Positions 33,161 through 50,986 of a DNA stretch of 63,052 nt are shown one piece after another. The position numbers and the translations under genes are program-made. Under the pieces are notes generated by a model, which was given only the letters and a program-made list of their open reading frames with translations, was not told the DNA's origin and did not search any database. The stretch is taken from contig JAHWGJ010000007.1 in NCBI GenBank assembly GCA_020054475.1, positions 1 through 63,052 of the forward strand, read 5' to 3'. The DNA is from Thermoplasmata archaeon. Lineage in GTDB: Archaea; Thermoplasmatota; E2; DHVEG-1. Position 1 is the stretch's first letter. Every line of letters starts with the position of its first letter.

Positions 33161-33474
33161 CTGTGCTGGGCGTAGTTGAATGGTTGACGGTAAATTATAA
33201 TATTTGCTGAGGAAAGTCCTCCCTCATTCTGAATCGGGAAACCGTTCAAGCGGTTAAGGTGAGAATCTTAGCAGAGGCGCAGAAACGACACAGCCCTTTG
33301 AATATGCTATGATTCATAAGATGATGAGATCTCATTGGGATATGATGAAACGGCTAATCTGCTCCTGGAGCAAGCCCAAATGTTGGGATCAGTTATTCAG
33401 ACTGCTCAAAGGTAGGGTGCTTAGTAGAATACCATTTAAAACAGAAGGAGGCTTACGGACTAGACCCAGCACTA
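33161..33474 (+). ncRNA. rnpB: RNase P RNA
   Basis: The 5' end GTGCTGGG (33163-33170) pairs with CCCAGCAC at the 3' end (33465-33472), forming helix P1. The universally conserved GAGGAAAGTCC (33209-33219, CR-I) and ACAGAAGGAGGCTTAC (33441-33456, CR-V) form P4. GCGCAGAAACGACACAG in between is another conserved element. Length about 312 bases fits an archaeal type A RNA. It is the catalytic part of RNase P, which matures tRNA 5' ends. Its last 28 bases are the attachment core used by the integrase at 33557, and they are duplicated twice downstream. No protein frame here is real. Confidence 0.9.
33445..33472 (+). repeat. att core 1 (rnpB-internal, element left end)
   Basis: 28 bases beginning AAGGAGGCTTACGGACTAG and ending CCCAGCAC, the 3' end of rnpB. 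Identical to 38422-38449. It restores a complete CR-V and P1 so the gene survives integration. Called attL because the integrase lies immediately inside it. Confidence 0.85.
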
Positions 33475-33534
33475 GTAACAGGGGTATCGGTTGAGTTTAG
33501 AAACCTTTACTCCCGTTACGAATCTAAACCGATA
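33475..33534. promoter_or_regulatory. Interleaved inverted repeats beside attL, possible integrase arm sites
   Basis: GTAACAGGG (33475-33483) can pair with CCCGTTAC (33512-33519), while TATCGGTT...TTTAGA (33485-33501) can pair with TCTAAACCGATA (33523-33534); the two pairings interleave. GGGTATCGGTTGAGTTTA (33482-33499) recurs exactly at 33696-33713, and a shorter version GGGTATCGTTTTAGA lies at 38374-38388 near the other end. This fits arm-type integrase or excisionase sites; the interleaving could also serve as an RNA pseudoknot. Confidence 0.5.
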
Positions 33535-33556
33535 GTCTACCTTATGGGCTTTTCTT

Positions 33557-34660
33557 CTATTGGATGTATGTATTTTGGTTATCTTTGTTATCGTTGCCTA
33601 TTAGATTTAGGAAGTCGTCTTTGCCTATCAATCCCTTCTGTAGAAGTGCTATATATTTGTCTGTTTTATCTTCGTCTTTTGTTCTTTTTGTGTTTGGGTA
33701 TCGGTTGAGTTTATCTGTATCGTTTTCAACCTTATGGTAGAGTTTTGGTTGGGTTTCTTCTGTTGGTTTAACTAGTCCGTAAGGCTTTTTCTGTTTTGGT
33801 TGAATGTCATTTAAAGACATTCCTCTTATGTATTCGTCTCTAGATTCTTCATCGGTTGGTTGTATATATCCCATTAGTGTATTCAAGTCTGAATGTCTAG
33901 ATTGTTGTTGTATTATCTTTAGATTGATTCCCTTTTGAGCCATATGTGTTATTCCAGATATCCTAAATAGATGTGGGTATACTCTTTTCTTGATACCAAC
34001 TTTAAAAGCCGTTCTCTTTAGGGTATTTGTAATTTCTGTATGCTTTATTCTGTTTCCAAAGATGTTAATGAACAATGCCTTATCATTTGGGTTTTTTGGT
34101 TGTCGTATTGTTAGATATTTCTTGATTGATTCTATACAATCTGGGTGTAAGTTGATTGTTGAGTATTTGTTTCCTTTACCACTATTGATTTTGATTTTGT
34201 TTCTATTGTAGTCAATATCTTCTAGGTTTAGATTTGATAATTCATTCCGTCTTAATAGTCCATAGTAAAAGACTTTAAGCATAGCATTTTCTTTGTAGTC
34301 GTGTTCTGTTACTTTGAACATCTTTGTAACTTCTTCTATTGTTAATGGGTTTTTATTTGGGGTGTATTGTCTAGGGGATTTTAGATGATATTCCTCTCTC
34401 CAATCTCTAGATTTGCCTATGACTTTCATAAAGATATTTATTGCCGAATACTTTGGTGTTAAGGTGTTACTTCCGTATGTCTGAACGGCATAGAGTTTAA
34501 ACTTTTGTAAGTCGTTTTCATCTATATTGTCTGGGTTTTTTCCAATCAGATTTAGGAATTGTCTTATTGTTCTTGTATAGGATTGTATTGTCTGTTTCGA
34601 TTTACTTTCAGCTATTAGATAGTTTTTATATTTGGTAATGAGTTTTTCATTTTCATTCAC
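33557..34660 (-). CDS. Tyrosine recombinase (integrase of the rnpB element)
   Basis: 367 residues. An N-terminal SAM-like DNA-binding domain (1-90) and a full catalytic set: Arg137/138 (LLRRNEL), His230 and Arg233 (HLFRISG), His256 (SRHSDL) and Tyr265 (GYIQP). It catalyses site-specific integration and excision. It ends about 85 bases from the att core inside rnpB, the normal place for an integrase using that target. The 18-base repeat at 33696-33713 is inside its coding region. Intact, so the element may be active. Confidence 0.92.
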   Translation of the reverse strand: MNENEKLITKYKNYLIAESKSKQTIQSYTRTIRQFLNLIGKNPDNIDENDLQKFKLYAVQTYGSNTLTPKYSAINIFMKVIGKSRDWREEYHLKSPRQYTPNKNPLTIEEVTKMFKVTEHDYKENAMLKVFYYGLLRRNELSNLNLEDIDYNRNKIKINSGKGNKYSTINLHPDCIESIKKYLTIRQPKNPNDKALFINIFGNRIKHTEITNTLKRTAFKVGIKKRVYPHLFRISGITHMAQKGINLKIIQQQSRHSDLNTLMGYIQPTDEESRDEYIRGMSLNDIQPKQKKPYGLVKPTEETQPKLYHKVENDTDKLNRYPNTKRTKDEDKTDKYIALLQKGLIGKDDFLNLIGNDNKDNQNTYIQ

Positions 34661-34722
34661 CTAATGTAATCATCAAGTCTGGTGATAAAGCCCATCTGCA
34701 ACCAAGATTTTCACCGATGTTA

Positions 34723-34992
34723 CTAATAATCCTGTGCTAAATAACGAAATTTATTGATACCTGTAATCGCTGATAGAGTCATTAAAAAAATTATAATTGG
34801 AAACATTAATGAACAAAGAATTGGAAAATTCCAGATGGATTTTGAACTACAACCACAATCTTCATCTTCAACAAGGTTTACATCTTTCTTTATTTCTATG
34901 ATAGGTTCTTCTGCTACAATAGGATTATAAGATAGACTGCAAAGTAGGAAAACAGAAATAATACTTAAACCGATTAAAGTTGATTTTTTCAT
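34723..34992 (-). CDS. Small secreted/membrane protein, paralogue 1
   Basis: 89 residues. Signal peptide 1-27 (MKKSTLIGLSIISVFLLCSL), a short charged spacer, a DCGCSSK motif (about 46-52) and a C-terminal hydrophobic segment (about 56-78). Its first about 60 residues are nearly the same as those of the next gene, so the two are tandem duplicates. Function unknown; the Cys-Gly-Cys motif could bind metal or form a disulphide. Confidence 0.7.
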   Translation of the reverse strand: MKKSTLIGLSIISVFLLCSLSYNPIVAEEPIIEIKKDVNLVEDEDCGCSSKSIWNFPILCSLMFPIIIFLMTLSAITGINKFRYLAQDY

Positions 34993-35013
34993 ATTATCAC
35001 TATCACATTATAT

Positions 35014-35313
35014 TTAAGGGTATGTTAAAGGACAGTCTAATATCTCAGCAAGAAGCTGTGCTAACATCCAAAGTGGGGGGACAGGAAAAATACTGATTGA
35101 CAAAGAAAATACCTGTAACACATATAAAATCGCACATATAATTGGAAAATTCCAAATGGGTTTTGAACTACAACCACAATCTTTAGATTCAACCAATATC
35201 ACATTTTCTTTTGGTTTTATAATTGGTTGTTCTGCAATTATCGGTTGATAAGATAGACTGCAAAGTAGGAAAACAGAAAGAATACTGAGTCCGATTAAAG
35301 TTGATTTTTTCAT
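35014..35313 (-). CDS. Small secreted/membrane protein, paralogue 2
   Basis: 99 residues. Same signal peptide, spacer and DCGCSSKPIWNFPI block as the 89-residue neighbour, then a different C-terminus (VFSLSISIFPVPPLWMLAQL). The gene pair sits 21 bases apart on one strand and probably forms one transcript with the two genes behind it. The diverged ends suggest a family in which the C-terminus varies. Confidence 0.7.
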   Translation of the reverse strand: MKKSTLIGLSILSVFLLCSLSYQPIIAEQPIIKPKENVILVESKDCGCSSKPIWNFPIICAILYVLQVFSLSISIFPVPPLWMLAQLLAEILDCPLTYP

Positions 35314-35319
35314 TTCTAT

Positions 35320-35769
35320 TTACCTCATAATTTGTAGATTTATATCTGAATTTATTGAATCATAATAATATACTTTATACACAATAAAGAATATGGTTAA
35401 TAATAGACATTGAGCAGATAATATATTATTATCATTAATAATAACATAAATATTGGAATGATAGAATCCCAATGAATATACCCTATAAGTAATCTTTAAT
35501 TTACTATCTGGTAAAGGTTCTTCAATTAATGTTCCTGTAAGAAATGGGATTCCATATAATTTAACTCTCAATTCTAAATTATCTGCATCTTCTACATCAC
35601 ATATAACAGTAATAGTTAAACCAATACCACCTTTAATTGTAGCCTCATAATCATTATCGTAAGATTTAATCTCTTCTTTTACCATAGATAATTGTGCAGA
35701 TGGGATAATAAACATAGACAAGATTAGAAAGCAACTAAAGAATGCTATAAAGAGAAATATTCTCTTCAT
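35320..35769 (-). CDS. Secreted protein, 149 aa
   Basis: Signal peptide (MKRIFLFIAFFSCFLILSMF), then a beta-rich region (ATIKGGIGLTITVICDVEDA) and a C-terminal hydrophobic segment (about 116-133). The gene follows the beta-helix gene by one base and precedes paralogue 2 by 6 bases, which makes a tight operon of four secreted proteins. Unknown family. Confidence 0.65.
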   Translation of the reverse strand: MKRIFLFIAFFSCFLILSMFIIPSAQLSMVKEEIKSYDNDYEATIKGGIGLTITVICDVEDADNLELRVKLYGIPFLTGTLIEEPLPDSKLKITYRVYSLGFYHSNIYVIINDNNILSAQCLLLTIFFIVYKVYYYDSINSDINLQIMR

Positions 35770-35770
35770 T

Positions 35771-36763
35771 CTATGACATCACCTCTGGAATATGAATATC
35801 ATATGGTTCAGATGCTGGATTCCAATCAATGTTGAACCAATTTAGCCAAATTCTACTATTATCTAAATGATATGAACCAAAAATGAATTTTGGTAATATC
35901 CTTGCATAATCCCAATAATTGCCATCCCAAATATTATTTGAATCTGGAGATAGAGCATAAAATTTTGCACTTCTATCATTATCTAAAAAATTATTCATAG
36001 TTATATTATTGAACTTACTTTCACCATGATTTAGTTCAATACCATACCTATTTTCAATTATTGCATTATTTGTAATACTATTATTTTTTGCTACAGATAA
36101 AACTATACCCGTACCATAACTACTACCAGTTTTAATCGCATTATTTAATATCCAATTTTCATCTGCGATTACTAAAGTTATGCCACTATTATTAAAATTA
36201 TAAATTGCATTATTAGTAATAATATTAAAATTTGAACGATATAGTTTAATACCATGTGAATTACTCTTTTCAATAACATTTTCTGTAATGATATCCCCAT
36301 ATGATGAATTTAGATAAATTCCTTCTTCTGAATTATAAATAATATTATCTCTCACTATATTATAATTTGAATCAATAAATATACCTTGATACTCATAAAA
36401 GGGATAATCGCTTTTTCCACTATTTAATATTGTAAATCCGGTAAGATGGACTTCATTTGCATAAATGCTGATAACATCTCCATTATTTTCTGCATCAATT
36501 ATAGTTGATATTTTATTTTCTCCAATTAATTCTAAGGTTTTATTAACAATTATATTCTCATAATATATTCCATTATACACAAATATTATATCTCCTTCAC
36601 TTGCATTATCTATTGCATCCTGAATCCTTGTATAATCAGCACCACCGTCATCATCTACATAGATGATATTATTGGAAGGAATACTTACACTAGAAATAAT
36701 TGGAAGGATACTTGAAAATAAGAATATTAGAATAACACCAAAGATTTGGGGTTGTTTCTTCAT
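35771..36763 (-). CDS. Secreted right-handed beta-helix protein (NosD/CASH type)
   Basis: 330 residues. Signal peptide (about 1-25), then YVDDDGGADYTRIQDAIDNA, a standard opening for this fold, followed by many short repeats of the N-x-I-x-x-N-x-I type (NNAIYNFNNSGITL) forming a parallel beta-helix. It ends WLNWFNIDWNPASEPYDI, close to the end of the protein at 47662 (NFDWNPLKEPFKI). Probably carbohydrate-binding or -processing on the cell surface. First gene of the four-gene secreted operon in the element. Confidence 0.82.
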   Translation of the reverse strand: MKKQPQIFGVILIFLFSSILPIISSVSIPSNNIIYVDDDGGADYTRIQDAIDNASEGDIIFVYNGIYYENIIVNKTLELIGENKISTIIDAENNGDVISIYANEVHLTGFTILNSGKSDYPFYEYQGIFIDSNYNIVRDNIIYNSEEGIYLNSSYGDIITENVIEKSNSHGIKLYRSNFNIITNNAIYNFNNSGITLVIADENWILNNAIKTGSSYGTGIVLSVAKNNSITNNAIIENRYGIELNHGESKFNNITMNNFLDNDRSAKFYALSPDSNNIWDGNYWDYARILPKFIFGSYHLDNSRIWLNWFNIDWNPASEPYDIHIPEVMS

Positions 36764-36976
36764 TAATTACCTCCCAGACATCTATAATATGTTTTCTATT
36801 TGATTTAAACCTTACTATCTAAAAATTATAATATATATAATACGAAAACCAGATTTCCTCTCCTTAAGGGCTTATAGCTGTTCATTTTTTAGGGCATTTT
36901 CTCCTTAGAAACCGTTCATTTTAATAGACATTAAATATATCTAATAAATCTTCTGATAACATCTGTCAAATAACTC
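36764..36976. other. Upstream region of the secreted operon
   Basis: No gene seen. The left end should hold the minus-strand promoter of the beta-helix gene (GGGAGGTAATTA lies just before its ATG, a good Shine-Dalgarno). The right end runs into the first hairpin RNA candidate of the array. Confidence 0.4.
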
Positions 36977-37078
36977 TTATATAACAAAGATTATAGAGTA
37001 TATTATTGAGAATAGAGGATTTAGGATTAATATTTTTTAACCTCTTCCCTCCCATCTCTCATTTATACCTCTATTCTC
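36977..37078 (+). ncRNA. Candidate hairpin RNA D (array member 1)
   Basis: TTATATAAC (36977-36985) about 25-30 bases before GAGAATAGAGG (37008-37018), which pairs perfectly with CCTCTATTCTC (37068-37078), 11 pairs. The 49-base loop is pyrimidine-rich (CCTCTTCCCTCCC). No frame. Confidence 0.5.
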
Positions 37079-37170
37079 TTCCATCTTTCCTTTAACACAT
37101 TCTAATATCCTTAATCTCAACATCTAAAAATGAATAAATATCGCTTATTGACGAATTAACAATTGTTAAC

Positions 37171-37279
37171 TTTATATACTAACAATGATAAACAATATAT
37201 TAATGAGAGATGGATTCCTTTTTATGTATATTACCAAAAACTCTTTTTACCTCCGTTTTTGAATATATGAATCCCTCTC
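37171..37279 (+). ncRNA. Candidate hairpin RNA E (array member 2)
   Basis: TTTATATACT (37171-37180) precedes GAGAG-AT-GGATTC (37205-37217), which pairs with GAATCCCTCTC (37269-37279): 11 pairs with a two-base bulge. ACCTCC lies in the loop (37249-37254). Confidence 0.5.
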
Positions 37280-37322
37280 TTTCCTACCCTATTTATAGAT
37301 TTTGTATCTAAAAAATGTTAAA

Positions 37323-37443
37323 CTATAAATAACATTAGTTACAAATATATTAAGTGAGTGGGGAGTAATAAAACGGATATTTCTTTTAGCCTATCCCATC
37401 CTAATCTCGAGACGATTAGACTTTTTCCATCTCCTCCCCTCTC
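37323..37443 (+). ncRNA. Candidate hairpin RNA F (array member 3)
   Basis: CTATAAATAA (37323-37332) precedes GAGTGGGGAG (37356-37365), which pairs with CTCCCCTCTC (37434-37443) with one T-T mismatch. An inner stem CTAATC/GATTAG lies at 37401-37419. The loop is pyrimidine-rich. Confidence 0.5.
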
Positions 37444-37500
37444 TCCTTATAATCTTTATTTATATTATAAAGGAAACCCAATATGTTTAAAGATTGATGT

Positions 37501-37611
37501 TTAATTATAATTACCAAAATATCTTAATATGACAATATAATAGCCATCTTGAGTGGGGAGTATCTCTTCACCACCTATTTTGAGATTTTAGGCATCTCTC
37601 CCTCTCCACTC
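37501..37611 (+). ncRNA. Candidate hairpin RNA G (array member 4)
   Basis: GAGTGGGGAG (37551-37560) faces CTCTCCACTC (37602-37611); six outer pairs (GAGTGG/CCACTC) are solid and others need bulges. TTAATTATAA lies about 40-50 bases upstream, and AATATAATA closer. CACCACC replaces ACCTCC in the loop. Confidence 0.4.
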
Positions 37612-37643
37612 ACATAAAAAATCAATCTAGAATTGTATTCCTC

Positions 37644-37760
37644 TTATGTAAAATCAGATTCATCTGAGAATATTCCATCTGTATGAACAATACTAGTTAG
37701 ACAATCAGAACATATTCTATCTAGTAATTCATTTTCTGGTTTTCTCGTAACACTTTTCGC
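37644..37760 (-). pseudogene. Out-of-frame remnant of a zinc-ribbon paralogue
   Basis: In another frame directly behind the 132-aa frame's end, the DNA reads ICSDCLTSIVHTDGIFSDE and ends DFT. The 40-aa protein at 38108 ends ICDNCKASIIHTGGIFPNE then DFT. So this is its paralogue without an own start, joined to the preceding gene by a frameshift or by deletion. Confidence 0.6.
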
Positions 37761-38094
37761 ATATAGGTTGTGTTTCAAATTCATATAATTTATCTTGTTT
37801 ATCATCTGTTATTTCTTCGCCACAATCTACACATTCTTTAGATTGATAGCTATGGTTTATGGATGCTCTTATCTTGGTAATTTGTTCTTCATTTTTATTA
37901 TAAAATATCTCTAAATCTTTTATAGAATTTTGAAGATTTTCTGATAGTCTATGAATACTATTAATATTATAGTCTAGTTTAGATTCCTTTATTGGAATAA
38001 ACAAACTATCTATATGTTTCTCTAAAATAAGATATTTATCTTTTACTTGTTTCAACTTCTTATTAAATTCTCCTTTAAATTCTTCTTCTTTCAT
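37729..38094 (-). CDS. Coiled-coil protein with C-terminal zinc ribbon
   Basis: 121 residues from MKEEEFKGEF, chosen because GAGGT lies 7 bases upstream; the open frame starts 11 codons earlier inside the preceding gene. A long amphipathic coiled coil (about 5-80) is followed by CVDCGEEITDDKQDKL...CEKC, a zinc ribbon resembling DksA/TraR-type fingers. It follows the 40-aa zinc-ribbon gene by 13 bases. It may act on nucleic acid or RNA polymerase; inferred only from the DksA-like layout. Confidence 0.65.
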   Translation of the reverse strand: MKEEEFKGEFNKKLKQVKDKYLILEKHIDSLFIPIKESKLDYNINSIHRLSENLQNSIKDLEIFYNKNEEQITKIRASINHSYQSKECVDCGEEITDDKQDKLYEFETQPICEKCYEKTRK

Positions 38095-38107
38095 CTTAAT
38101 AACCTCT

Positions 38108-38230
38108 TTATGTAAAATCTTCTTCATTTGGGAATATCCCCCCTGTATGAATTATAGATGCTTTACAATTATCGCATATGTCTATTCCATCATCTGATAG
38201 TTCACTACCACATATAGAACAATATTCCAT
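38108..38230 (-). CDS. 40-aa zinc-ribbon protein
   Basis: MEYCSICGSELSDDGIDICD, then NCKASIIHT and an acidic tail ending DFT. Two CxxC pairs (CSIC and CDNC) fit one zinc site. It has a degraded sibling at 37644-37760. It is the first gene of a small operon with the coiled-coil zinc-ribbon protein. The start codon lies about 35 bases from a TATA-like TTATATTATAC stretch. Confidence 0.6.
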   Translation of the reverse strand: MEYCSICGSELSDDGIDICDNCKASIIHTGGIFPNEEDFT

Positions 38231-38260
38231 TATATTATACCATAGAATAAGTAAATAATT

Positions 38261-38350
38261 CTTATAAATATTTATACCAAAACTCTTATCAATATAAAGA
38301 AGTAAAGGGGATTGATAGAAGAGAATACCAAAAACTTCTATCTTCCCTTT
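38261..38350 (+). ncRNA. Candidate hairpin RNA H
   Basis: CTTATAAATATTTATA (38261-38276) lies about 30 bases before AAAGGGGATTGATAGAAG (38304-38321), which pairs with CTTCTATCTTCCCTTT (38335-38350): eight pairs next to the loop and six at the base. Loop only 13 bases and no ACCTCC. Divergent from the 40-aa gene. Confidence 0.45.
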
Positions 38351-38421
38351 GAAATATTTAATCTAATAGCTTTGGGTATCGTTTTAGATTTCGTTAATTA
38401 TATAAAAGAAAACAGATTTAT

Positions 38422-38449
38422 AAGGAGGCTTACGGACTAGACCCAGCAC
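38422..38449 (+). repeat. att core 2 (element right end)
   Basis: Identical over 28 bases to 33445-33472, with flanks that differ on both sides. It is the displaced rnpB 3' end. It has no rnpB body in front of it, so it is not a functional gene. The bases after it read ACTCGAAGGGTTATG. Confidence 0.85.
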
Positions 38450-38688
38450 ACTCGAAGGGTTATGTCTTTAATGGCATAGCTCTTCTCCTATTAATATAGA
38501 TAAAACATAAGTTCTCTTCTGTTCTATTAGGTTTTATTTCTATTAAAGGAGAGTAATTCCTAACTGATTTGTCTATGATAATTTCTTTTATCCTTATGTT
38601 CTTGAATTTCGAGATAAGTGAATGCTTTTGTTTTATCCAAACATTGAATTTTGATGTTTATTTCGATTTATTTCCATTAATGTCATAA

Positions 38689-38811
38689 ATTCCTGTTTAT
38701 CAATTAAAAACAAATGAAATAGTAAGAAAAATTCATTTTAAAAATCCAAAAGATTTTAACAAGTTTTTAGAAGATTTCAGATCAATCAAATATTTATTTA
38801 TTATTTTTTAA
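38689..38811 (+). pseudogene. Short coding remnant
   Basis: About 40 codons open from a TAA at 38686 to a TAA at 38809, reading VRKIHFKNPKDFNKFLEDFR near its end. No start codon. Composition suggests the C-terminus of a lost protein. Identity unknown. Confidence 0.35.
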
Positions 38812-38833
38812 AATGGTTTACTGAAGCGGGTCA

Positions 38834-38912
38834 AATGGGGATGTATTATACAGGCTTATTAAAATTTTGAACGTTGAATTCATGGATTTTTTCACAAGCC
38901 TTTATCCCCATT
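38834..38912 (+). ncRNA. Candidate hairpin RNA I
   Basis: AATGGGGAT (38834-38842) pairs with ATCCCCATT (38904-38912), and AGGCTT (38852-38857) with AAGCCT (38896-38901), 15 pairs. AATATTTATTTATTAT lies about 30-45 bases upstream. Same polarity (G-rich first arm, C-rich second) as the other candidates. Confidence 0.45.
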
Positions 38913-39039
38913 CTTCCCACATCATTCTTTTAATATCATTTAATATATAAAATTTTTGTTCTCAAATTATCTAAATGCTTTATTTCAAGGAACAATTATA
39001 TTACAAGATAAAATGAATCATATGTCATTATGTAGTATA

Positions 39040-39168
39040 TTATCCACATTCATATTCTTCGCAGTGAATTTTTCCTTCTTCACATTTTGGAAGTGTGCAG
39101 ATATCTCTATGAATACAATTTACACATATTCCTTTGTATTTTACTGCATCCTTTGTTGTTTTTTCCAT
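39040..39168 (-). CDS. 42-aa cysteine-rich protein (redox/metal-binding)
   Basis: MEKTTKDAVKYKGICVNCIH, then RDICTLPKCEEG and HCEEYECG. Six cysteines in the pattern C-x2-C-x5-C-x4-C-x6-C-x4-C. Similar tiny proteins ending HCEEYE are known from anaerobes next to redox genes, function unsettled. It is the last gene behind the GOGAT-domain gene (81-base gap) and probably a metal-binding accessory of this operon. A plus-strand open frame over the same DNA is a shadow. Confidence 0.7.
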   Translation of the reverse strand: MEKTTKDAVKYKGICVNCIHRDICTLPKCEEGKIHCEEYECG

Positions 39169-39249
39169 TTTTTGTTTATTCCTCCAAGCAATTTTTTACA
39201 ATATTATTCTATTTACATTTCCTTCAATTTCTCGTTTTCCTATATGTTT

Positions 39250-40830
39250 TTATGAATTAAGTATTTTTTCAACCTGTTTTTTATCGCATTCCATGATGTA
39301 TTGAATATTGCTAATATTACTTGCTTCATTTGTTAATGCTGCTATATCATCTCTTGAAATATGCTCTAATGAAAACTTACGACAACCTGCCATAATCTGC
39401 CTCAACCCTTGATGAAGTCGCTCCATATATGTATAAACGCCTAAGGCACCTGTTGGAATTTTTTCAAAATCTTTTCCAAACTTTCTAATAAGATCAGGTG
39501 CAGTAACAAAAATCTCCTCAGGAGTGTCACCAAATCGTTCAATGTATACAGGCACAATTCCTTCATCAATTTTTTTCCCAATTGTCTTACCAACCATGGC
39601 TGCAGCAAGGGGTGCTCGTGCCATACCAATTAGTTTAAAATAAGGAGCACCAAGTGCCAATCCTTTCATCATCTGATCTTCAAATGAAAAACCACCTGAT
39701 ATAGCAATATCAGGAATATACTCGCCTTTATTAGCAAGATTACTACAATATTTGTATAATAAAGAATGCAATTCTACTCCAGGTACACCCCATTCATTCA
39801 TCATTCGCCATGGACTCATACCTGTTCCGCCACCAGCCGCATCAACAGTTAAAAGATCAATTTCTGTTTTTGATGCAAACTTCAATGCTTGTGCTAATGC
39901 TACTGGTCGGTATGCACCAGTTTTCAGGAAAACATGTTTTGCACCCATATTTCTAAGTTCTTTCACTCGCTTTGAAAAAGCTTCTTCAGTTACCATGCCT
40001 ACTCTAGAATGTCTTTCGAATTCTTTGAAATTACCTTTTTCAAAATCCTTGATGATATACGGATCAGTGGGATCAGGAAGAACAATATATCCTCTTTTTT
40101 TCAAAAGTTGTGCTTTTACAAGATCCTTAATCTTTACTTCTCCACCAATATTTTTTGCGCCTTGACCCCATTTTAATTCAACAGCATCTACATCTAATTC
40201 AGATATTGCATATTCATGAACACCAAGATTAGTATCTTCTACATTAGACTGTACAACTATTGCACCATACCCCTCGTGTTGCCATTTCTTATAAAGATTT
40301 ACCCGCCATTCAAGTTCCGGTGAATACTTAACCTTACCTTTGACAATTTCTGATTTAGGATCCATTCCACATACATTTTCACCAATTGTAAGCATAATAC
40401 CAGATAATGCTGCACCTATTGCTAATCCTTCCCAGTTGTTTTTTGCAATAGCTGTTGATCCAAGTCCAGGAATAACAGTAGGCATTCTGAGCTTAATTTT
40501 TTTGTTTTTACCAATCCTTGTTTCTAGATTCACATTTGAAAATAGTGTTTTATCACTATTAGCTTCTATACCCCATGCACCTACAACTCCACCCAATATA
40601 GTAAAATGAGAGAGATCAACAGGATAATTCTTTTCACATGCTGATGTTATAATTCCAAAAGGTTGAGGATATATTATTTCATGACCTCGATAGGCAGATT
40701 TACCTATCTCACACATCCCTACACATCCATCAACACATGTTGCACACATTCCACTAAGCGAATTAATCGCTCCCTCTGTCCTGTTTTTACTTAATGTAGC
40801 TGCAGAAGCATTTATCTTTGTTAATGACAT
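39250..40830 (-). CDS. FMN-binding glutamate synthase (GOGAT) domain protein
   Basis: 526 residues. It has the central FMN/3Fe-4S synthase barrel of glutamate synthase (LLTVDAAGGGTGMSPWRMMN; AISGGFSFEDQMMKG) but lacks the N-terminal glutaminase domain and C-terminal GXGXG domain of bacterial GltB. An extra Cys cluster lies near residues 28-40 (CATCVDGCVGMC). In archaea such short proteins make or use glutamate from ammonia or from a partner amidotransferase. Here it follows a NuoF-GltD fusion and a 2Fe-2S subunit, so electrons could come from that complex. GGAGAAAA precedes the ATG. Confidence 0.85.
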   Translation of the reverse strand: MSLTKINASAATLSKNRTEGAINSLSGMCATCVDGCVGMCEIGKSAYRGHEIIYPQPFGIITSACEKNYPVDLSHFTILGGVVGAWGIEANSDKTLFSNVNLETRIGKNKKIKLRMPTVIPGLGSTAIAKNNWEGLAIGAALSGIMLTIGENVCGMDPKSEIVKGKVKYSPELEWRVNLYKKWQHEGYGAIVVQSNVEDTNLGVHEYAISELDVDAVELKWGQGAKNIGGEVKIKDLVKAQLLKKRGYIVLPDPTDPYIIKDFEKGNFKEFERHSRVGMVTEEAFSKRVKELRNMGAKHVFLKTGAYRPVALAQALKFASKTEIDLLTVDAAGGGTGMSPWRMMNEWGVPGVELHSLLYKYCSNLANKGEYIPDIAISGGFSFEDQMMKGLALGAPYFKLIGMARAPLAAAMVGKTIGKKIDEGIVPVYIERFGDTPEEIFVTAPDLIRKFGKDFEKIPTGALGVYTYMERLHQGLRQIMAGCRKFSLEHISRDDIAALTNEASNISNIQYIMECDKKQVEKILNS

Positions 40831-40843
40831 ATTTTTTTCTCCT

Positions 40844-41551
40844 TTATAATTTATTATTCTTTTTTTCTTTCTCTTTTTTCCTTCCTAATTCGTTATAACA
40901 CCATCCACAGGGATCCATGAAACACATTTTATCATTCTCATCCTCCAAGCAAACTGGCTCAACATTTGCACAACCACCACAGACATCGCCTGGTGCATCT
41001 GGACCCTCACAGCGTAACTCACATGCTGGGCAAATATACATACATCCACCGCATGTTCTACAAACATCAGATTTAGCATCAAATGGAGTTGAAATCTTTC
41101 TATCTTTCCCCCTATTAACAAAACCTATTGCTTTTGCCATCATCTGTTCTTCGCACATACGAACGCAAAGTCCACAGAGAATGCAGTCACCATGTTCTAC
41201 TTTGAATCGTACTTTTTTTACTTCCATTGCAGAGGCAAGATCTTGTATTATCTTTGATGAAGGGCACATTGCAAGCAACAGTTCAACTAACATTTTCCTT
41301 GCTTCTACAACTCTCTTAGAGTTAGTTCTGACAAATAATCCTTGTTCAGCGGGATAAGTACATGATGAGACAAGTTTTGTATTTTTTCCTTTTCCTATTT
41401 CTACGATACATAAACGGCATGCGCCATAGTCCGTTAAGCCATCATGGTGACATAAAGTAGGTACAGGTATGCCATAAAATTGGGCAACATCTAATAAGGA
41501 TGCCCCTTCCTCCACTTGGACATCAAGACCATCTATCATTAAATTTATCAT
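40844..41551 (-). CDS. 2Fe-2S / 4Fe-4S electron-transfer subunit (NuoG/HoxU-like)
   Basis: 235 residues. Residues 1-75 are a plant-type 2Fe-2S ferredoxin (CHHDGLTDYGACRLCIVEIG...CTYPA). Then follow 4Fe-4S ligand sets: CILCGLCVRMCEE and CRTCGGCMYICPACELRC, and another Cys-rich block CGGCANVEPVC...CGWC. The layout matches the small electron-relay subunits of NuoG-, HydB- or Stn-type complexes. Its start overlaps the stop of the fusion gene by four bases (ATGA). Confidence 0.85.
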   Translation of the reverse strand: MINLMIDGLDVQVEEGASLLDVAQFYGIPVPTLCHHDGLTDYGACRLCIVEIGKGKNTKLVSSCTYPAEQGLFVRTNSKRVVEARKMLVELLLAMCPSSKIIQDLASAMEVKKVRFKVEHGDCILCGLCVRMCEEQMMAKAIGFVNRGKDRKISTPFDAKSDVCRTCGGCMYICPACELRCEGPDAPGDVCGGCANVEPVCLEDENDKMCFMDPCGWCYNELGRKKEKEKKNNKL

Positions 41552-44500
41552 AATTGCACCTCATTGGCTTTTTTCTCCTTTTCCAGTTTTTCCTGCTCCA
41601 TTTTTTCTTGTAATTCTATTTCAAGGTCACATCTTAGACACCGTTTTGCTTCTTTTATTGCTATACTCTTTGAATAACACAATTCAACCTCATCAAAATT
41701 ATTAAATCTTTTATCGCTAGATAAAGTAGAATGCTTTTGCATCTTATATTTTACGGGTTCTTTCTCAGGGTTAAAAAACGTATCAACTTTCTTATGTTCC
41801 CGCCATGGATATTTTCTTGTTCTGTCTTTTGTAAGATATTGATCTATGTTTACTGCTGCACGCTCTCCTTCAGCTATTGCGTTAATCACCGTGTTAGGTC
41901 CTGATACAACATCTCCGCCTGAAAAAACTCCAGGAATACTCGTTGCCCCATTTTTATTGCAACTTATAGTTCCATCAGGTTTTGTTTCAACATCAAGTCC
42001 TGTAAAAAGTTCAGTAACATCAGAAAATTCTCCTATTGCAGGTATTACAGTATCAACATCTAAATAGAAATTACTGTTTTTAAGAGGAACTGGTTTTTGC
42101 CTTCCGTCCATATCGAATTCTCCCGGAATCATTTTTATACATTCGATACTTTTTACCTTTCCTTTTTCACCATTAATTTTTACTGGAGCTACTAGATAGT
42201 ATATTTTTACACCTTCATGTTCAGCTTCCTTAATTTCTTCTTCATATGCTGGCATCTCTCTACGCGTTCTTCTGTAAAGAATAGTTACCTCTCTAGCACC
42301 CATTCGAAGTATGGTTCTCGCAGCATCAATTGCTGAATTCCCTCCACCGATTACTACAACTTTTTTCCCAACATGAGATACTATAGGCTTATCTAAACTA
42401 ATGTCGATTAGTAAATCAACGGCTTGAAAAACATTTTCAAGATTTTCGCCTGGGATTCCTAAACTTCTGTCTCCATACATTCCAACTGCAACAAAAAACG
42501 CTTCATATCCCTGTGACCATAACTGAGATATTGTAACATCTTTACCAACCTGTGTGTTCAATCTTATATTTACTCCTAATTTTTTAATGTTATTAATCTC
42601 GCGTTGTAATATATTATTTGGTAAACGATATTCAGGTATTGCCACTGCCATCATTCCACCAGGTATACTCAATTTTTCAAATACAGTTGGTTTATAACCT
42701 AAACGAGCTAAGAAATAGGCGCAACTCAACCCGGATGGACCTGCTCCTATAATTGCAACTTTAAAAGGCATTTTATCCTTTGAAGATTTAATCTTTGGAT
42801 ATTCAATATCATTTTCCTTGTAGTCTCCAATAAATCTTTTCAAGGATCTAATGGCAACAGATTCATCAATTTGATTTCTTCTACACTTAGATTGACATTG
42901 ATGATTACATATACGTCCACACACAGATGGAAATGGATTGGTATCCAACGCTAGTTCCAATGCCTCTTTAAATCTTTCCTCTCCAATCAAAGAAATATAT
43001 CCTGGAACGTTCATGCCAGCTGGACAAGCATTCTGGCAAGGAGAGATATATAAGTCACGGCAGACCCCTGCAGGACATTTTCTTTCAAAAATATGTGTTT
43101 CATATTCCTTTCGAAAATATTTAATTGTTGATAAAACAGGATTTGCTGCTGTCTGACCAAGACCACACATCGAAGTCTCCTTTACAACGTTAGCTAGATC
43201 TTCTAGAAGTTCTAAATCACCCTCCTTACCCTGTCCTTTTGTAATATCTATTACAATCTCTGACATTCTCTTTGTGCCTTCACGACAGGATAAGCATTTA
43301 CCGCAAGACTCATCTTGAAGAAATTCCAAAAAATATCTGGCAAAATCCACCATGCATGTATCCTCATCCATGATGACCATGCCGCCTGAACCCATTATAG
43401 ATCCTACTTCTTTGAGTTTTTCATAATCAACACGAGTCTCAAGAAGATTTTTTGGTATACAACCGCCAGAAGGACCTCCTGTTTGAACAGCTTTAAATAT
43501 CTTTCCTTCAGGCATCCCTCCACCTATATTATAGATCATATCTTTTAGAGTGATTCCCATTGGAACCTCTACCAAGCCTGTGTTGTTTATTTTTCCTACA
43601 AGTGAAAATATCTTCGTTCCTTTGCTGTTATCCATTCCTATCTTTGAATACCACTCTGAACCTTTAGAAATAATTAAAGGTATGTTTGCCCATGTTTCAA
43701 CATTATTTATGTTTGTAGGTTTGTTCCATAAACCTTTTTGTGCTGGAAAGGGTGGACGCTGCCTCGGTTCACCTTTTTTCCCTTCAATAGATGCAATAAG
43801 TGCCGTCTCTTCACCACATACAAATGCTCCAGCTCCTCTAATTATTGTTATATCAAAATCAAAATGAGAGTTGAGAATATTTTTCCCAAGCAAACCATAA
43901 TCTCGCGCTTGTTTTATTGCATTAGTAATCGTCCTTACAGCAATGGGATATTCATCTCGGATATACACAAAACCTTCATTTGCACCAATAGCATATGCTC
44001 CAATAATCATACCTTCAAGGATACTATGAGGATTCCCTTCAAGCAAGCTCCTATCCATATATGCACCGGGATCACCTTCATCTGCATTGCAAATAATATA
44101 TTTCTTATTTCCCTTTGCCTTTCTGCAAAATTCCCATTTAAATCCAGTCGGAAATCCTGCACCCCCACGTCCTCTTAATTCAGATTTTTTAATTTCATCA
44201 ATGATATTATCAGGGGACATATTGCATAATGCTTTCCCTACAGACCCATATCCACCAATTAATAAATAATCCTCTATTTTGTATGGATCTATAAATCCAT
44301 TTTTGCCAAAAACAATACGGTACTGACCCTTGTAGAACGGCACATCCTTTTCATATTTAATCTTCTCGCCACTGAGCGGATCAATATAAAGTAAGCGATC
44401 TATAATTTTATCTGCAAGAACAGTTTCAGAAAGGATTAGCTTAACGTCTTTTGACTGCACTTTTTGATAAAAGATGCCTTTAGGATGAATAACAACAATT

Positions 44501-44727
44501 GGCCCTCTTTCACAAAAACCATGACAACCAGTAACTTTAATTTCCACCTTATTTTTAAAGTCTTTGTTTTTAATCTCTCGTTTGAATGCATCAATTACTT
44601 TTTTGCAACCAGAGGCATGACATCCAGTACCTCCACAGACTGTTATTAACTGTCTTCCTTTCTTTGTTTTTTTAATTAAGTTTTCCTTGATTTGTTTAAG
44701 ATCTGAAAGATTTTTTATTTTTTTCAT
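41548..44727 (-). CDS. NuoF-GltD fusion flavoprotein (StnB-like)
   Basis: 1059 residues. About 25-115: thioredoxin-like 2Fe-2S domain (CGGTGCHASGC...CHGFCERGP). About 150-570: NuoF/51-kDa NADH- and FMN-binding part (LRGRGGAGFPTGFKW) with its 4Fe-4S site (ESCGKCLSCREGT). About 575-1000: GltD/NfnB-like NADPH/FAD part with N-terminal cysteines (CQNACPAGMNVPGY) and GAGPSGLSCAYFLARLGY. This fusion is known from the StnB subunit of the Sporomusa-type electron-bifurcating transhydrogenase. Known of the family: it couples NADH, NADPH and ferredoxin. Inferred here: redox supply for the GOGAT protein. Complete; GC content visibly above most of the window. Confidence 0.88.
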   Translation of the reverse strand: MKKIKNLSDLKQIKENLIKKTKKGRQLITVCGGTGCHASGCKKVIDAFKREIKNKDFKNKVEIKVTGCHGFCERGPIVVIHPKGIFYQKVQSKDVKLILSETVLADKIIDRLLYIDPLSGEKIKYEKDVPFYKGQYRIVFGKNGFIDPYKIEDYLLIGGYGSVGKALCNMSPDNIIDEIKKSELRGRGGAGFPTGFKWEFCRKAKGNKKYIICNADEGDPGAYMDRSLLEGNPHSILEGMIIGAYAIGANEGFVYIRDEYPIAVRTITNAIKQARDYGLLGKNILNSHFDFDITIIRGAGAFVCGEETALIASIEGKKGEPRQRPPFPAQKGLWNKPTNINNVETWANIPLIISKGSEWYSKIGMDNSKGTKIFSLVGKINNTGLVEVPMGITLKDMIYNIGGGMPEGKIFKAVQTGGPSGGCIPKNLLETRVDYEKLKEVGSIMGSGGMVIMDEDTCMVDFARYFLEFLQDESCGKCLSCREGTKRMSEIVIDITKGQGKEGDLELLEDLANVVKETSMCGLGQTAANPVLSTIKYFRKEYETHIFERKCPAGVCRDLYISPCQNACPAGMNVPGYISLIGEERFKEALELALDTNPFPSVCGRICNHQCQSKCRRNQIDESVAIRSLKRFIGDYKENDIEYPKIKSSKDKMPFKVAIIGAGPSGLSCAYFLARLGYKPTVFEKLSIPGGMMAVAIPEYRLPNNILQREINNIKKLGVNIRLNTQVGKDVTISQLWSQGYEAFFVAVGMYGDRSLGIPGENLENVFQAVDLLIDISLDKPIVSHVGKKVVVIGGGNSAIDAARTILRMGAREVTILYRRTRREMPAYEEEIKEAEHEGVKIYYLVAPVKINGEKGKVKSIECIKMIPGEFDMDGRQKPVPLKNSNFYLDVDTVIPAIGEFSDVTELFTGLDVETKPDGTISCNKNGATSIPGVFSGGDVVSGPNTVINAIAEGERAAVNIDQYLTKDRTRKYPWREHKKVDTFFNPEKEPVKYKMQKHSTLSSDKRFNNFDEVELCYSKSIAIKEAKRCLRCDLEIELQEKMEQEKLEKEKKANEVQL

Positions 44728-44729
44728 TA

Positions 44730-45134
44730 TTATCCCTTGAAAAAAGTTGAATATACATTGTAAAAAGCCTTTAATTCTGTCTCTAAATCCTCAAATTCAA
44801 GGATAAGTTTCTTACATCCTTTGCGAGAACATATCTGTATGTTCCCCCCATTTTCAATATTCATTAATGCCATTTGTGATTTACATTTTTCGCATGTTCT
44901 AGTACTCATCAAATTGGTATTACACCACGGGCAGAAGAGTATTAACGTGTCTCCATCAGCAACAAAAGAAGGGATTTTCGAATTATAACTTCCCAAAATT
45001 GAACTTAAATGTAACTCATCTTTTTTTCCTTTGTATTCAAATAATAAACGTACAGAAGGATGTCCATCAATCTTGTACTTTTCATCTTTTAAACTATGCT
45101 TACAGTGCTTACATTCCATATTCAGTTTTATCAT
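44730..45134 (-). CDS. Cys-rich zinc-ribbon/rubredoxin-like protein in the redox operon
   Basis: 134 residues with CKHC, CPWC, CEKC and CSRKGC pairs spread over the chain, so perhaps two zinc or iron sites. A beta-rich middle part (SVRLLFEYKGKKDELHLSSI). GGAGG lies 10 bases before the ATG. It is placed between the NuoE-like gene and the fusion gene, two bases ahead of the latter, and is probably a subunit or maturation factor of the complex. I do not recognise the family. Confidence 0.7.
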   Translation of the reverse strand: MIKLNMECKHCKHSLKDEKYKIDGHPSVRLLFEYKGKKDELHLSSILGSYNSKIPSFVADGDTLILFCPWCNTNLMSTRTCEKCKSQMALMNIENGGNIQICSRKGCKKLILEFEDLETELKAFYNVYSTFFKG

Positions 45135-45148
45135 AAGAAAATTTCCTC

Positions 45149-45610
45149 CTATTTTTTCTTTGAAAATTTTTTAATAGTCGAAACAACTTTTTTTGGGTTC
45201 ATCTGTCCATAATACTTTTTATCTACTACCATCAAAGGTCCTAGAGCACATGCACCAAGACATCTTACTGTTTCTAAAGAGAAATTTTTATCTGGTGTGG
45301 TTTCGTCGACATCAATATTTAACTGGCTTTTGATTTCATTGAGAATTCTTGGTCCCCCACGAACATGACATGCTGTGCCTGAACACACAGTAATGATATG
45401 TTTACCTCTAGGTTTTAGATAAAATGATTTGTAAAAAGTCGTTAAGCTATAAACATCGATCAAAGGGATATTCATTTTTTCAGAAACTTGTTTTAATATT
45501 TCTGGAGGAAGCCAACGATTTACTTCTTGAATATCTTGCAGTATTGATATTAGAGATGATTTTTTATAATCATGTTTTTTTAATATTTTGTCAATATCAG
45601 CTTTTTTCAC
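45149..45610 (-). CDS. NuoE-like 2Fe-2S thioredoxin-fold subunit (StnA-like)
   Basis: 153 residues. NuoE fold with the 2Fe-2S ligands CSGTACHVRGG (about 79-89) and CLGACALGP (about 122-130). The helical N-terminus (LISILQDIQEVNRWLPPEIL) is typical. First gene of the six-gene minus-strand operon. It relays electrons with NuoF. The promoter should lie in the 45.6-45.8 kb gap. Confidence 0.92.
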   Translation of the reverse strand: MKKADIDKILKKHDYKKSSLISILQDIQEVNRWLPPEILKQVSEKMNIPLIDVYSLTTFYKSFYLKPRGKHIITVCSGTACHVRGGPRILNEIKSQLNIDVDETTPDKNFSLETVRCLGACALGPLMVVDKKYYGQMNPKKVVSTIKKFSKKK

Positions 45611-45875
45611 TGAATAACCCCTAAATTGCTAGCTGGTGAATTGTCCTTTACTTTTAAAACTTTACGATTGCAATTACTTTTAAAAAATTTGTGGGTCAAT
45701 AAGTTGTTATATCAAAAAAATACCGTGTTATTAATCAAACAGGATATAAAACAGTCAATTCTGTTTTAGTAAATTATGCTATATTTGGCACAAGAAGCCA
45801 TTAGTATCAGGGATTCCCAAAAGATTAATATGCTTAAATTTAATGCTGCTCTCAAAAACTTTAGGAGTAAATTGT
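45611..45875. promoter_or_regulatory. Divergent promoter gap between redox operon and glutamate dehydrogenase
   Basis: About 265 bases without a gene. CTTAAATTTAAT (near 45833-45844) lies about 30 bases before the gdhA start and may be its TATA box; AGGAG (about 45863) is the Shine-Dalgarno. AATAAGTTGTTATATCA further left could serve the other direction. Shared control of ammonia/glutamate genes is plausible. Confidence 0.4.
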
Positions 45876-47138
45876 ATGTCAAAATCGTTTTTTGAAAATG
45901 TTTTAGAGCAGATAGATGCAACTGCTGAGAATATGTCACTAGATTCTGGAATCCACAAGATGTTAAGGCAACCGGAGCGTGAATTGACGGTTGCTATTCC
46001 CATAGAAAAAGATACTGGAGAAATAGAAGTTTATACTGGTTATAGAGTACAACATAACAGTGCGAGAGGTCCCTGTAAAGGTGGTATCAGATATCATCCT
46101 GATACTAACTTGGATGAGGTTAAAGCACTCGCAACATTAATGTCTTTAAAATGTGCTGTTGCTAACGTCCCATTTGGGGGAGCAAAAGGGGGCGTAACAT
46201 GTACTCCATCAAAACTTTCAAAAAAAGAACTTCAAAAATTAACAAAAAGATATGCAGCGATGATATTACCAATAATTGGGCCAAGATCCGATATTCCCGC
46301 TCCAGATGTTAATACAAATGCTGAAACAATGGGCTGGATTATGGATGCTATTTCAATGTATAAAGGTTCAACAGTTTTAGATATTGTAACTGGAAAACCG
46401 TTGGAACTCGGTGGATCTCTTGGTAGGAGAGAAGCAACAGGTAGAGGAGTAATGATTAATACAGTTGAACTTCTAAAAAAATTAAATAAAAATCCAAAGG
46501 AAACATCTATTGCAGTTCAAGGATTTGGAAATGTCGGATCAATTAGTGCAGAGCTTCTTGTTGAACAGGGCTGTACGATAAATGCCATTAGTGATGTTTC
46601 AGGAGGCCTTTACAACCCAGATGGATTAGATATACCTAAAATTACAAAATATGTTAACTCCAAACCCCAAATTTCCCTGCTCAAAGATTATAATCGTAAG
46701 AAAGATGATGAGATAATAAGTAACCAAGATCTATTGGAATTAGATATCGATGTCTTAGTTCCTGCAGCTCTTGAAAATCAAATTCATAGTGATAATGCTG
46801 ATAACATAAAAGCAGAGATAATTGTTGAGGGGGCAAATGGACCGGTTACCAAAAAAGGCGATGAAATACTTTCAGAAAGAAGAATATATATCATTCCGGA
46901 TATTCTTGCAAATAGCGGTGGAGTAGTTGTTTCATATTTTGAATGGGTTCAGGGAATTCAATCATTCTTCTGGGGAGTTGATGAGGTTAACAAGAATCTA
47001 AAGAATATACTGCTTAAATCCTTTGATGAAGTGTGGAAAATTTCAAAGGAAGAAAAAGCAACACTACGGGATGCTGCCTTCTTACTTGCTATGGGAAAAA
47101 TAGCTAAAGCAACCGAATTGAGAGGAATATTCCCATAA
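45876..47138 (+). CDS. gdhA: Glutamate dehydrogenase
   Basis: 420 residues from MSKSFFENVLEQ, with AGGAG upstream; an in-frame ATG 11 codons earlier lacks support. Catalytic lysine motif GPCKGGIRYHP (about 67-77), VPFGGAKGGV (about 100-109), and the Rossmann GFGNVGS (about 210-216). It interconverts glutamate and 2-oxoglutarate plus ammonia, hexameric. It is divergent from the redox/GOGAT operon, which hints at a joint glutamate module. Complete. Confidence 0.95.
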   Translation: MSKSFFENVLEQIDATAENMSLDSGIHKMLRQPERELTVAIPIEKDTGEIEVYTGYRVQHNSARGPCKGGIRYHPDTNLDEVKALATLMSLKCAVANVPFGGAKGGVTCTPSKLSKKELQKLTKRYAAMILPIIGPRSDIPAPDVNTNAETMGWIMDAISMYKGSTVLDIVTGKPLELGGSLGRREATGRGVMINTVELLKKLNKNPKETSIAVQGFGNVGSISAELLVEQGCTINAISDVSGGLYNPDGLDIPKITKYVNSKPQISLLKDYNRKKDDEIISNQDLLELDIDVLVPAALENQIHSDNADNIKAEIIVEGANGPVTKKGDEILSERRIYIIPDILANSGGVVVSYFEWVQGIQSFFWGVDEVNKNLKNILLKSFDEVWKISKEEKATLRDAAFLLAMGKIAKATELRGIFP

Positions 47139-47223
47139 ACTTAAAATAAAATTTTACTTATTGTATAAAGAAAATTAAAAAATTATTTGGAGAGATATCC
47201 TGAATAAGCGTCTTTGTAGATTT

Positions 47224-47406
47224 TTATAACTCACGTTTTACTTGATCTATTAATTTATCCATATTTTTGGTACCAACAGTGGTTACTATGGTGTCCAACA
47301 TTGCAAAAAAAATTAAATTTATATCGACGTCGTTCTTCATGAACTCATTAATAATATATTTATAAATTCCATTTTTTACTTTCATATATTTCTCATTATG
47401 TTCCAA
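47224..47406 (-). CDS. 60-aa protein of unknown function
   Basis: MEHNEKYMKVKNGIYKYIIN onward, mostly helical, no Cys, no signal peptide. Convergent with gdhA (85-base gap). Strong purines (GGAGGAAATGA) lie just before the ATG, supporting translation. Family not recognised. Confidence 0.6.
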   Translation of the reverse strand: MEHNEKYMKVKNGIYKYIINEFMKNDVDINLIFFAMLDTIVTTVGTKNMDKLIDQVKREL

Positions 47407-47505
47407 TTAAATCATTTCCTCCAACAATATTTGATAACAACTCTTTAATAATTAATTTTTCCTAAACGTTGAAAAACATCAGGGGAATTCAACCTATATC
47501 CTATA

Positions 47506-47520
47506 AGCCCACCAGCGGCT
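47506..47520 (+). repeat. 15-base hairpin motif AGCCCACCAGCGGCT, copy 1
   Basis: Stem AGCC/GGCT with loop CACCAGC. Identical to 50470-50484. The two copies bracket the two beta-helix genes. This copy has no T-tract behind it. Confidence 0.5.
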
Positions 47521-47661
47521 CCATGTTATTATCTAGCACGATAATTTCATTTTTTGCCATTTAACTATATTTGATAAATTAATCATTAAAAAATTAAAAT
47601 TTGACATTCATAGAAAATTTAAAATCAAATGACTTGAATATATGTTATTGGAGGGAGTGAT

Positions 47662-49122: not shown

Positions 49123-49145
49123 AATTAATAAAAAATAGGATAAAA

Positions 49146-50420: not shown

Positions 50421-50469
50421 AATGATTAGTATGGATTTTTTTGGTGAGGCTTTGATGGATTGTTACTAT

Positions 50470-50492
50470 AGCCCACCAGCGGCTTTTTTTTT
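50470..50492 (+). terminator. AGCCCACCAGCGGCT hairpin with T-tract (copy 2)
   Basis: Stem AGCC/GGCT followed by a run of nine T, 50 bases after the beta-helix gene. This is a convincing terminator for the two-gene operon. The same 15-base sequence lies at 47506-47520. Confidence 0.65.
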
Positions 50493-50608
50493 AAAATTTG
50501 AATGTTCTAGCATATTTTAACCCAAATGGACCCAATAAAACTAATAAATTAGTATTTTGATAAGATTTTGAGAGTATATAGCAACTACTTACACAATACA
50601 GTTGTTCA

Positions 50609-50644
50609 CCCTGAGAATCGGTTGTTTTATGCTCCCCCTCAGGG
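50609..50644. other. Hairpin CCCTGAG/CTCAGGG
   Basis: Seven perfect pairs around a 22-base loop (50609-50615 with 50638-50644), C-rich first and G-rich second, opposite to the other hairpin candidates. It lies just upstream of the winged-helix pseudogene. Could be a regulatory structure or an RNA on the minus strand. Confidence 0.35.
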
Positions 50645-50671
50645 CTAATATTATTTATTAACGGTGAAAAA

Positions 50672-50986
50672 ATGAGAAAAAGTACGAAAATAGTTTATAT
50701 GACCAGAAAACAAATAAAGAGATGGTTAAGAGAAAAGGGGAGAACAAGACTTAAAAATTTATTTCTGTTGAGCCAGTAGGAAAAATGGGGGGTAACTGAT
50801 CTCGAATTTGAGCTAAATAGGGATCATAAAAATCTATGGAGAACCTTAAAAAAAATGGAGATTGATGGCTATACAAAAAATAAAGATAGAAAATGGTCAT
50901 TAACTGATAGAGGCGATAAAGCAGTTGTTAATGCAATAAATGCAGGTCTTATTCCAAAGGAAAAACGACCAATAGAGTATTATTAG
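50672..50986 (+). pseudogene. Winged-helix gene interrupted by in-frame TAG
   Basis: GGTGAAAAA precedes ATG. Codons 1-35 give MRKSTKIVYMTRKQIKRWLR onward, then TAG at 50777-50779, then the same frame continues to a second TAG, giving VTDLEFELNRDHKNLWRTL and KWSLTDRGDKAVVNA, a MarR/ArsR-like winged helix. Other genes here end with TAG in the usual way, so this is best read as a nonsense mutation. Confidence 0.6.

Follow-up and report, generated by a model that had tools for sequence, protein, structure and literature searches.

In this study, we analyzed a 63,052-nucleotide stretch of DNA from a Thermoplasmata archaeon (assembly GCA_020054475.1, contig JAHWGJ010000007.1), hereafter the window, which corresponds to contig C40 of a 1.68-Mb host genome that is 72% complete. 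Its sequence, compared with that of 52 genomes of the same archaeal order, makes it very probable that the 3′ end of rnpB, the gene for archaeal RNase P RNA, is a recurrent attachment site and anchors an integron-like cassette array, with an integrase of the XerA type and sites that lack an attC-like fold. The original prediction, made from the window alone, had proposed one integrative element at this site. Integration at the rnpB end is supported by a perfect repeat with an adjacent integrase, by homologs or remnants of that integrase in six genomes, by the confinement of the copies to the rnpB strand downstream of the gene, and by two comparisons of empty with occupied sites. Our analysis goes beyond that prediction in finding tandem arrays whose typical small unit is a toxin-antitoxin cassette, and two or more integrase families beside rnpB.

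The RNase P RNA gene and the two units downstream of it

A full-model match to RNaseP_arch (RF00373) covers 33168-33467 on the plus strand with 169.2 bits (gathering score 84, E 1.9e-48), which confirms the gene that had been proposed. The P1 strands GTGCTGGG (33163-33170) and CCCAGCAC (33465-33472) base-pair, and the end of rnpB therefore lies near 33472. As predicted, the last 28 bases of the gene recur perfectly at 38422-38449. When up to 3 mismatches were allowed, three copies of this 28-bp core were found in the window, all on the plus strand (33445, 38422 and 52220), and 100 shuffles yielded none (mean 0.00, maximum 0). The three copies delimit two tandem units downstream of rnpB (Table 1); the third, which closes the 13.8-kb second unit, had been overlooked before. 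Direct repeats duplicate the 3′ end of the target, and the full gene is regenerated in the window, in agreement with the earlier idea that each integration rebuilds a working RNA. The only tRNA gene of the window lies at 62268-62343.

Unit 1 spans 4,977 bp and, as an integrase-bearing element whose cargo encodes secreted proteins, holds the integrase gene and five further open reading frames (ORFs). The integrase gene is intact and lies near one end of the unit. A complete tyrosine recombinase is thus present just inside the first copy, but it does not start 85 bases inside that copy as had been stated: the minus-strand gene ends there, convergent with rnpB. The ORF (33557-34660) scores 102.4 bits with Phage_integrase in Pfam, and the catalytic residues R137, K162, H230, R233, H256 and Y265 are invariant in an alignment with eight relatives. 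The XerA equivalog model NF040815 is the best NCBIfam model, although the score of 163.3 bits is below its cut-off of 220; the integron integrase model TIGR02249 gives 88.7 bits, in two separate stretches, against a cut-off of 265. Archaeal XerA proteins (PDB 5hxy and 4a8e) are the nearest solved structures in a PDB profile search, and the closest relatives of the integrase come from metagenome-assembled genomes (MAGs) named Thermoplasmata or Candidatus Thermoplasmatota. Among viral contigs, a single-protein search gave no relative, an alignment gave distant integrases only, and not one exact match to the core pattern occurred. A 401-aa ORF at 24652-25857 on the plus strand, 7.6 kb upstream of rnpB, resembles a further tyrosine recombinase, with a zinc ribbon at its C terminus.

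The arm repeat of the window, GGTATCGGTTGAGTTTA, occurs beside the left core (33483), within the integrase gene (33697) and in the left arm of the second core copy (38375). The last of these (38374-38391) has the same spacing to the core as the CTTMYGTCTTC box of the relatives. The variable tail of the integrase, after the catalytic tyrosine, also carries an inverted 26-nt stretch that resembles the rnpB end and had been overlooked previously. With 23 of 26 positions matching, it scores above all of 3,000 codon shuffles, which reached 20 at most, and no such stretch was found at the rnpB loci of relatives. It is possibly a second, inverted core, which could permit inversion or autoregulation.

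Unit 2 has no recombinase gene. It encodes glutamate synthase-like, Fer2/Fer4 and NuoE-like proteins, a fused NuoF-GltD-type flavoprotein and a glutamate dehydrogenase, together with two NosD proteins and a 181-aa protein without a Pfam match. Genes 79-80% identical to that of the flavoprotein lie away from rnpB in G022, G018, G014 and G035 (the gene in G035 shares a contig with rnpB, at a distance of about 59 kb), and one in G020 is 77% identical. Unit 2 may have arisen by capture of a metabolic operon between two sites, or by insertion followed by rearrangement; it would be an older unit or one moved in trans. The canonical CTTACGTAC box at the third copy suggests that a different integrase probably placed this unit.

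Table 1. Features of the rnpB locus in the window (positions in the window; repeat families D1, D4 and I1)
Feature	Position	Strand	Basis or remark
rnpB (archaeal RNase P RNA), 3′ end as attachment site	33163..33472	+	RF00373 match and P1 pairing
attL core, final 28 nt of rnpB, AAGGAGGCTTACGGACTAGACCCAGCAC	33445..33472	+	Perfect direct repeat
Probable arm-type site 1, GGGTATCGGTTGAGTTTA	33482..33499	+	D4; 9 nt past the core
XerA-like tyrosine recombinase (integrase), 367 aa	33557..34660	-	Pfam, NCBIfam, PDB profile search, alignment; convergent with rnpB
Second perfect copy of the arm-type repeat	33696..33713	+	D4; in the C-terminal tail of the integrase
Inverted 23/26 copy of the rnpB 3′ region (33438-33463)	33772..33797	-	I1; in the integrase tail
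Cargo, small secreted/membrane protein	34723..34992	-	D1; 83% DNA-identical duplicate of the 35014..35313 ORF; no Pfam match
Cargo, small secreted/membrane protein	35014..35313	-	
Cargo, secreted/membrane protein	35320..35769	-	No Pfam match
Cargo, NosD/beta-helix secreted protein	35771..36763	-	PF05048, 71.7 bits
Cargo, coiled-coil protein with CxxC zinc-ribbon-like end	37729..38127	-	Pfam matches sub-threshold only
Left-arm copy of the arm-type repeat, GGGTATCGTTTTAGATTT	38374..38391	+	D4; 78%; about 50 nt upstream of core GGCTTAC
attR of unit 1, junction copy	38422..38449	+	Perfect direct repeat with 33445-33472
Unit 2, 13,798 bp	38450..52247		No recombinase
Third rnpB-end copy	52220..52247	+	1 mismatch; left arm with canonical box CTTACGTAC at 52174-52182

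Arrays, integrases and cassettes in related genomes

We searched the 52 genomes with the core pattern GGCTTAYGGCCTASACCCAGC, allowing one mismatch, and used the same pattern read backward as the control. The pattern had 91 matches in 36 genomes and the control had 0 in every genome. With each genome's own rnpB end as the query, copies were found downstream of rnpB and on its strand; even with up to 6 mismatches allowed, none lay upstream or in reverse orientation. Stretches with several copies always carry all of them on one strand. Arrays of 3-10 copies occur in many genomes, either downstream of rnpB or as separate arrays. Outside the order, in other families of the class, the core pattern had no matches; rnpB ends differ there, and analogous sites could occur. 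In one such genome (G043, L034:1811 and 1857), the rnpB 3′ end recurs only 46 bp further on, perhaps as a similar site in another lineage. Solitary copies with similar right flanks lie far from rnpB in G006 (L250:7527) and G062 (L262:7528), and in both a flavoprotein/thioredoxin-reductase-like gene starts within about 60 bp. The rnpB contigs of G009, G019, G027, G031, G008, G037 and G018 stop about 0-480 bp past the gene, as would be expected if repeated sites break assemblies.

We located rnpB in the relatives with RNaseP_arch and placed the integrase homologs alongside it. Convergent homologs adjoin rnpB in G020, G025, G014 and G028, and a truncated gene occupies the same position in G033 and G006; in G030, a truncated gene lies between repeat copies on a contig without rnpB. 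The rnpB-adjacent integrases include five that are full or nearly full in length, four of which form one clade (91/96), and the integrase of the window has no firm placement. We considered an SSV-type (suicidal, split) integrase because C-terminal fragments adjoin rnpB in G033 and G006. This candidate was rejected: the integrase of the window is intact, the att core lies outside it, and intact genes occupy the same place elsewhere. In G021, a distinct tyrosine recombinase (L181:2823-3791; PF00589, 28.5 bits) adjoins rnpB and is followed by an operon of small proteins.

Two pairs of congeneric genomes provide empty and occupied sites. In G033 and G062, rnpB is 95% identical over 340 bp by blastn, and G062, just past its rnpB, matches the sequence after the second copy in G033 (81% over 1,375 bp), with the two aligned pieces overlapping by about 32 bp, the core. 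Therefore, a 3,949-bp unit with an integrase remnant is present in G033 and missing from G062. The second pair, G068 and G035, belongs to another genus. Its rnpB genes share 98% identity over 349 bp, and what directly follows rnpB in G068 sits 6.3 kb downstream in G035 (88% over 2,887 bp). Five units separate rnpB from the native flank in G035, and a decayed copy, CCTACACCCAGA, marks the far junction. The expectation of an uninterrupted target in relatives was thus borne out for units of the relatives themselves.

Altogether, we counted 50 units with a minimum length of 150 bp, which together amount to 104 kb. Many span only 0.5-0.9 kb, and 27 are shorter than 1.3 kb. Pfam-supported toxin-antitoxin homologs occur in 20 of the 50 units and in 17 of the 27 shorter than 1.3 kb; they include ParE, HicA, HigB-like, PIN and Fic types, with AbiE in longer units. 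No toxin-antitoxin homolog was found in 129 kb upstream of rnpB, a contrast biased by the fact that the probes were taken from the units. Full-length homologous units, bounded by copies, recur with different neighbors. One is a ParE-type unit of about 600 bp, present in G020, G021, G007 and G023; in G035 it forms the end of a longer unit. Another, a HicBA unit, occurs in G018 and twice each in G021 and G035, and a longer unit in G010 ends with it. In G035 (L080:1146-3505), two HicBA cassettes that are 96.5% identical flank a Fic cassette, and the pair represents either one cassette captured twice or a duplication within the array. It had been reasoned that repeats in relatives with neither an integrase nor size variation between them would speak against an integrative element. 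Repeats without an integrase do occur in many relatives, but the intervals between them vary strongly in size and differ in cargo, a pattern that points toward movement of cassettes in trans.

Unrelated units have only their last 75-105 bp or so in common, namely, an arm box and the rnpB end, and cassette genes occur in both orientations. In the shared cassette end, the arm box CTTMYGTCTTC stands about 50 nt ahead of GGCTTAC; an A/T-rich stretch and a short variable block come next, followed by the rnpB end. Integrase-bearing elements carry arm boxes on both sides; the right arm, beside the integrase gene, has repeated boxes such as CTTACGTYCT in G025, G028, G014 and G020. A second class of left arms carries a CTCGTCT...GACGAG motif. 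In five cassette ends of this class (L080:1146, L233:3868, L237:14049, L246:7650 and L253:4032), a conserved ACCATCAAGGAC and this motif precede a shorter rnpB-derived core. Across 72 sites, folding was no better than that of shuffles (mean z -0.49 for the top and -0.42 for the bottom strand).

A putative mechanism and its alternatives

The target, its copies, the arms, the intact integrase, the unit boundaries and the empty and occupied sites of relatives can be read from the DNA itself, and on this basis, we propose a putative mechanism. The attB core of about 28 bp would be the rnpB 3′ end. A circular element or cassette would carry its own copy of the core with a left arm about 40-60 bp further out, and integrase-bearing elements would also carry several right arm boxes next to the integrase gene. 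The XerA-like recombinase, encoded by the first unit convergently with rnpB, would recombine the core of the circle with that of rnpB. The gene would gain a new, equivalent 3′ end and remain functional, its old end being displaced downstream, and an array of tandem units would result from repeated insertions. Those units that lack an integrase, which are often toxin-antitoxin modules of about 600 bp, may be moved in trans in the manner of integron cassettes.

However, several observations weigh against this mechanism. The circles, their excision, mobilization in trans, the responsible enzyme and any present activity are inferred from comparison among genomes. Most of these genomes are fragmented MAGs, and the arrays of G018, G021, G025, G007 and G010 lie on contigs without rnpB; no homolog of the window integrase was found in G010, a genome that is 81% complete and has an array. 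Because rnpB is not assembled in G001, the window's genus-mate, this genome offers no unoccupied counterpart to the units of the window. The use of unit-derived probes also biases the toxin-antitoxin contrast with upstream DNA. In the best tree, the five rnpB-adjacent integrases do not form one clade (2 changes; a single origin is possible), and integrases of G004 and G005 that are almost as close to that of the window are located away from rnpB; specificity has therefore changed within the family. Searches with ARAGORN and Rfam found no tRNA or other RNA target for the non-rnpB integrases of G004, G005, G006 and G033.

The integrase of a different family beside rnpB in G021 leads to an alternative that we regard as possible, though we lean against it: the arrays may have been built mainly by other recombinases, such as this one, with the window integrase being one of several independent users of the core. 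The second class of left arms is consistent with this explanation, as is the arm repeat of the window, which differs from the canonical CTTMYGTCTTC, the copy at 52220 being canonical. However, canonical boxes also stand beside the homologous integrases of G025, G014, G028 and G020, which links the integrase family of the window to the common cassettes.

Much less probable is the chance presence at rnpB of just one ordinary integrative element in this genome, the remaining copies being unrelated remnants. The window does contain only one integrase-bearing unit, and Islander gives precedent for tandem islands at RNA genes (PMC4383910). Nevertheless, this explanation is already disfavored by the arrays of 3-10 copies in many genomes, by sub-kilobase units and cassette families that recur with the same boundaries, and by the comparison of G035 with G068, in which five units lie between rnpB and its native flank.

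A true integron, with an IntI integrase and attC cassettes that use rnpB as attI, is very improbable. Archaeal integrons exist (PMC9668308), and the small tandem cassettes, many of them toxin-antitoxin modules and each ending in a shared site of about 75-105 bp, recall them. However, TIGR02249 falls far below its cut-off and a XerA-type enzyme fits best, the sites fold no better than shuffles, and the genes lie on both strands. We therefore rejected integron membership: small cassettes with a terminal shared site were found, and an IntI-type integrase and attC sites that fold as single strands were not. Finally, although the repeats derive from a structured RNA, it is scarcely credible that, instead of being recombination sites, they serve RNA processing or termination and were spread by homologous recombination, given the precise insertions at the core, the adjoining integrase, the arm boxes at fixed spacing and the genes on either strand.

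Significance and comparison with known systems

With recurrent integration at the rnpB end, the targets of site-specific integration would come to include an essential ribozyme gene, that for RNase P RNA. We found no report of an rnpB attachment site in the open-licence papers searched, where combining rnpB or RNase P RNA with integrase or att returned reference-gene, phylogeny-marker or unrelated uses. The array would also be an archaeal, integron-like system independent of IntI and attC. Because rnpB is essential and its P1 and conserved 3′ region would be rebuilt at each insertion, the locus offers a natural test of the preference of integrases for the 3′ ends of RNA genes. The tandem toxin-antitoxin cassettes suggest array stabilization or defense, roles that are debated for superintegrons. 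Moreover, the rnpB 3′-end repeats can be used to locate mobile units in uncultured Thermoplasmatota and may explain contig breaks just past rnpB.

Islander describes genomic islands in tRNA and tmRNA genes, among which tandem arrays occur (Williams; PMC4383910). Like those islands, the system described here has a tyrosine recombinase inside one end, a duplicated 3′ end of an RNA gene, a regenerated target and a displaced fragment that marks the far end. In contrast, its target is rnpB, which is absent from that work (PMC4383910), most of its units lack an integrase, and the units are as small as 0.5 kb; moreover, its XerA-like recombinase belongs to a subclass that the Islander search excludes (PMC4383910). 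Although the integrase is closest to archaeal XerA (PDB 5hxy and 4a8e) in solved structures and best NCBIfam model, it differs in its score under the XerA cut-off, its C-terminal tail and its rnpB target with arm boxes. The array shares with integrons, including archaeal ones (PMC9668308), a fixed platform, single-gene or toxin-antitoxin cassettes, a terminal recombination site and clusters without an integrase, but it has no IntI and no attC-like fold, uses an essential RNA gene as its platform, carries its integrase in a mobile unit and holds genes in both orientations. Similar to additive flexible genomic islands and tycheposons (PMC10872708), it has cargo units split by copies of an RNA-gene 3′ end (of tRNA genes in those islands), a Xer-type tyrosine recombinase and units without an integrase, whereas it is archaeal and anchored at rnpB instead of tRNA genes, its minimal cargo is typically a toxin-antitoxin module, and it has a conserved end of about 75-105 bp with an arm box. 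The closest known kinds are therefore tandem islands at RNA genes (PMC4383910) and additive islands with tRNA 3′-end repeats (PMC10872708).

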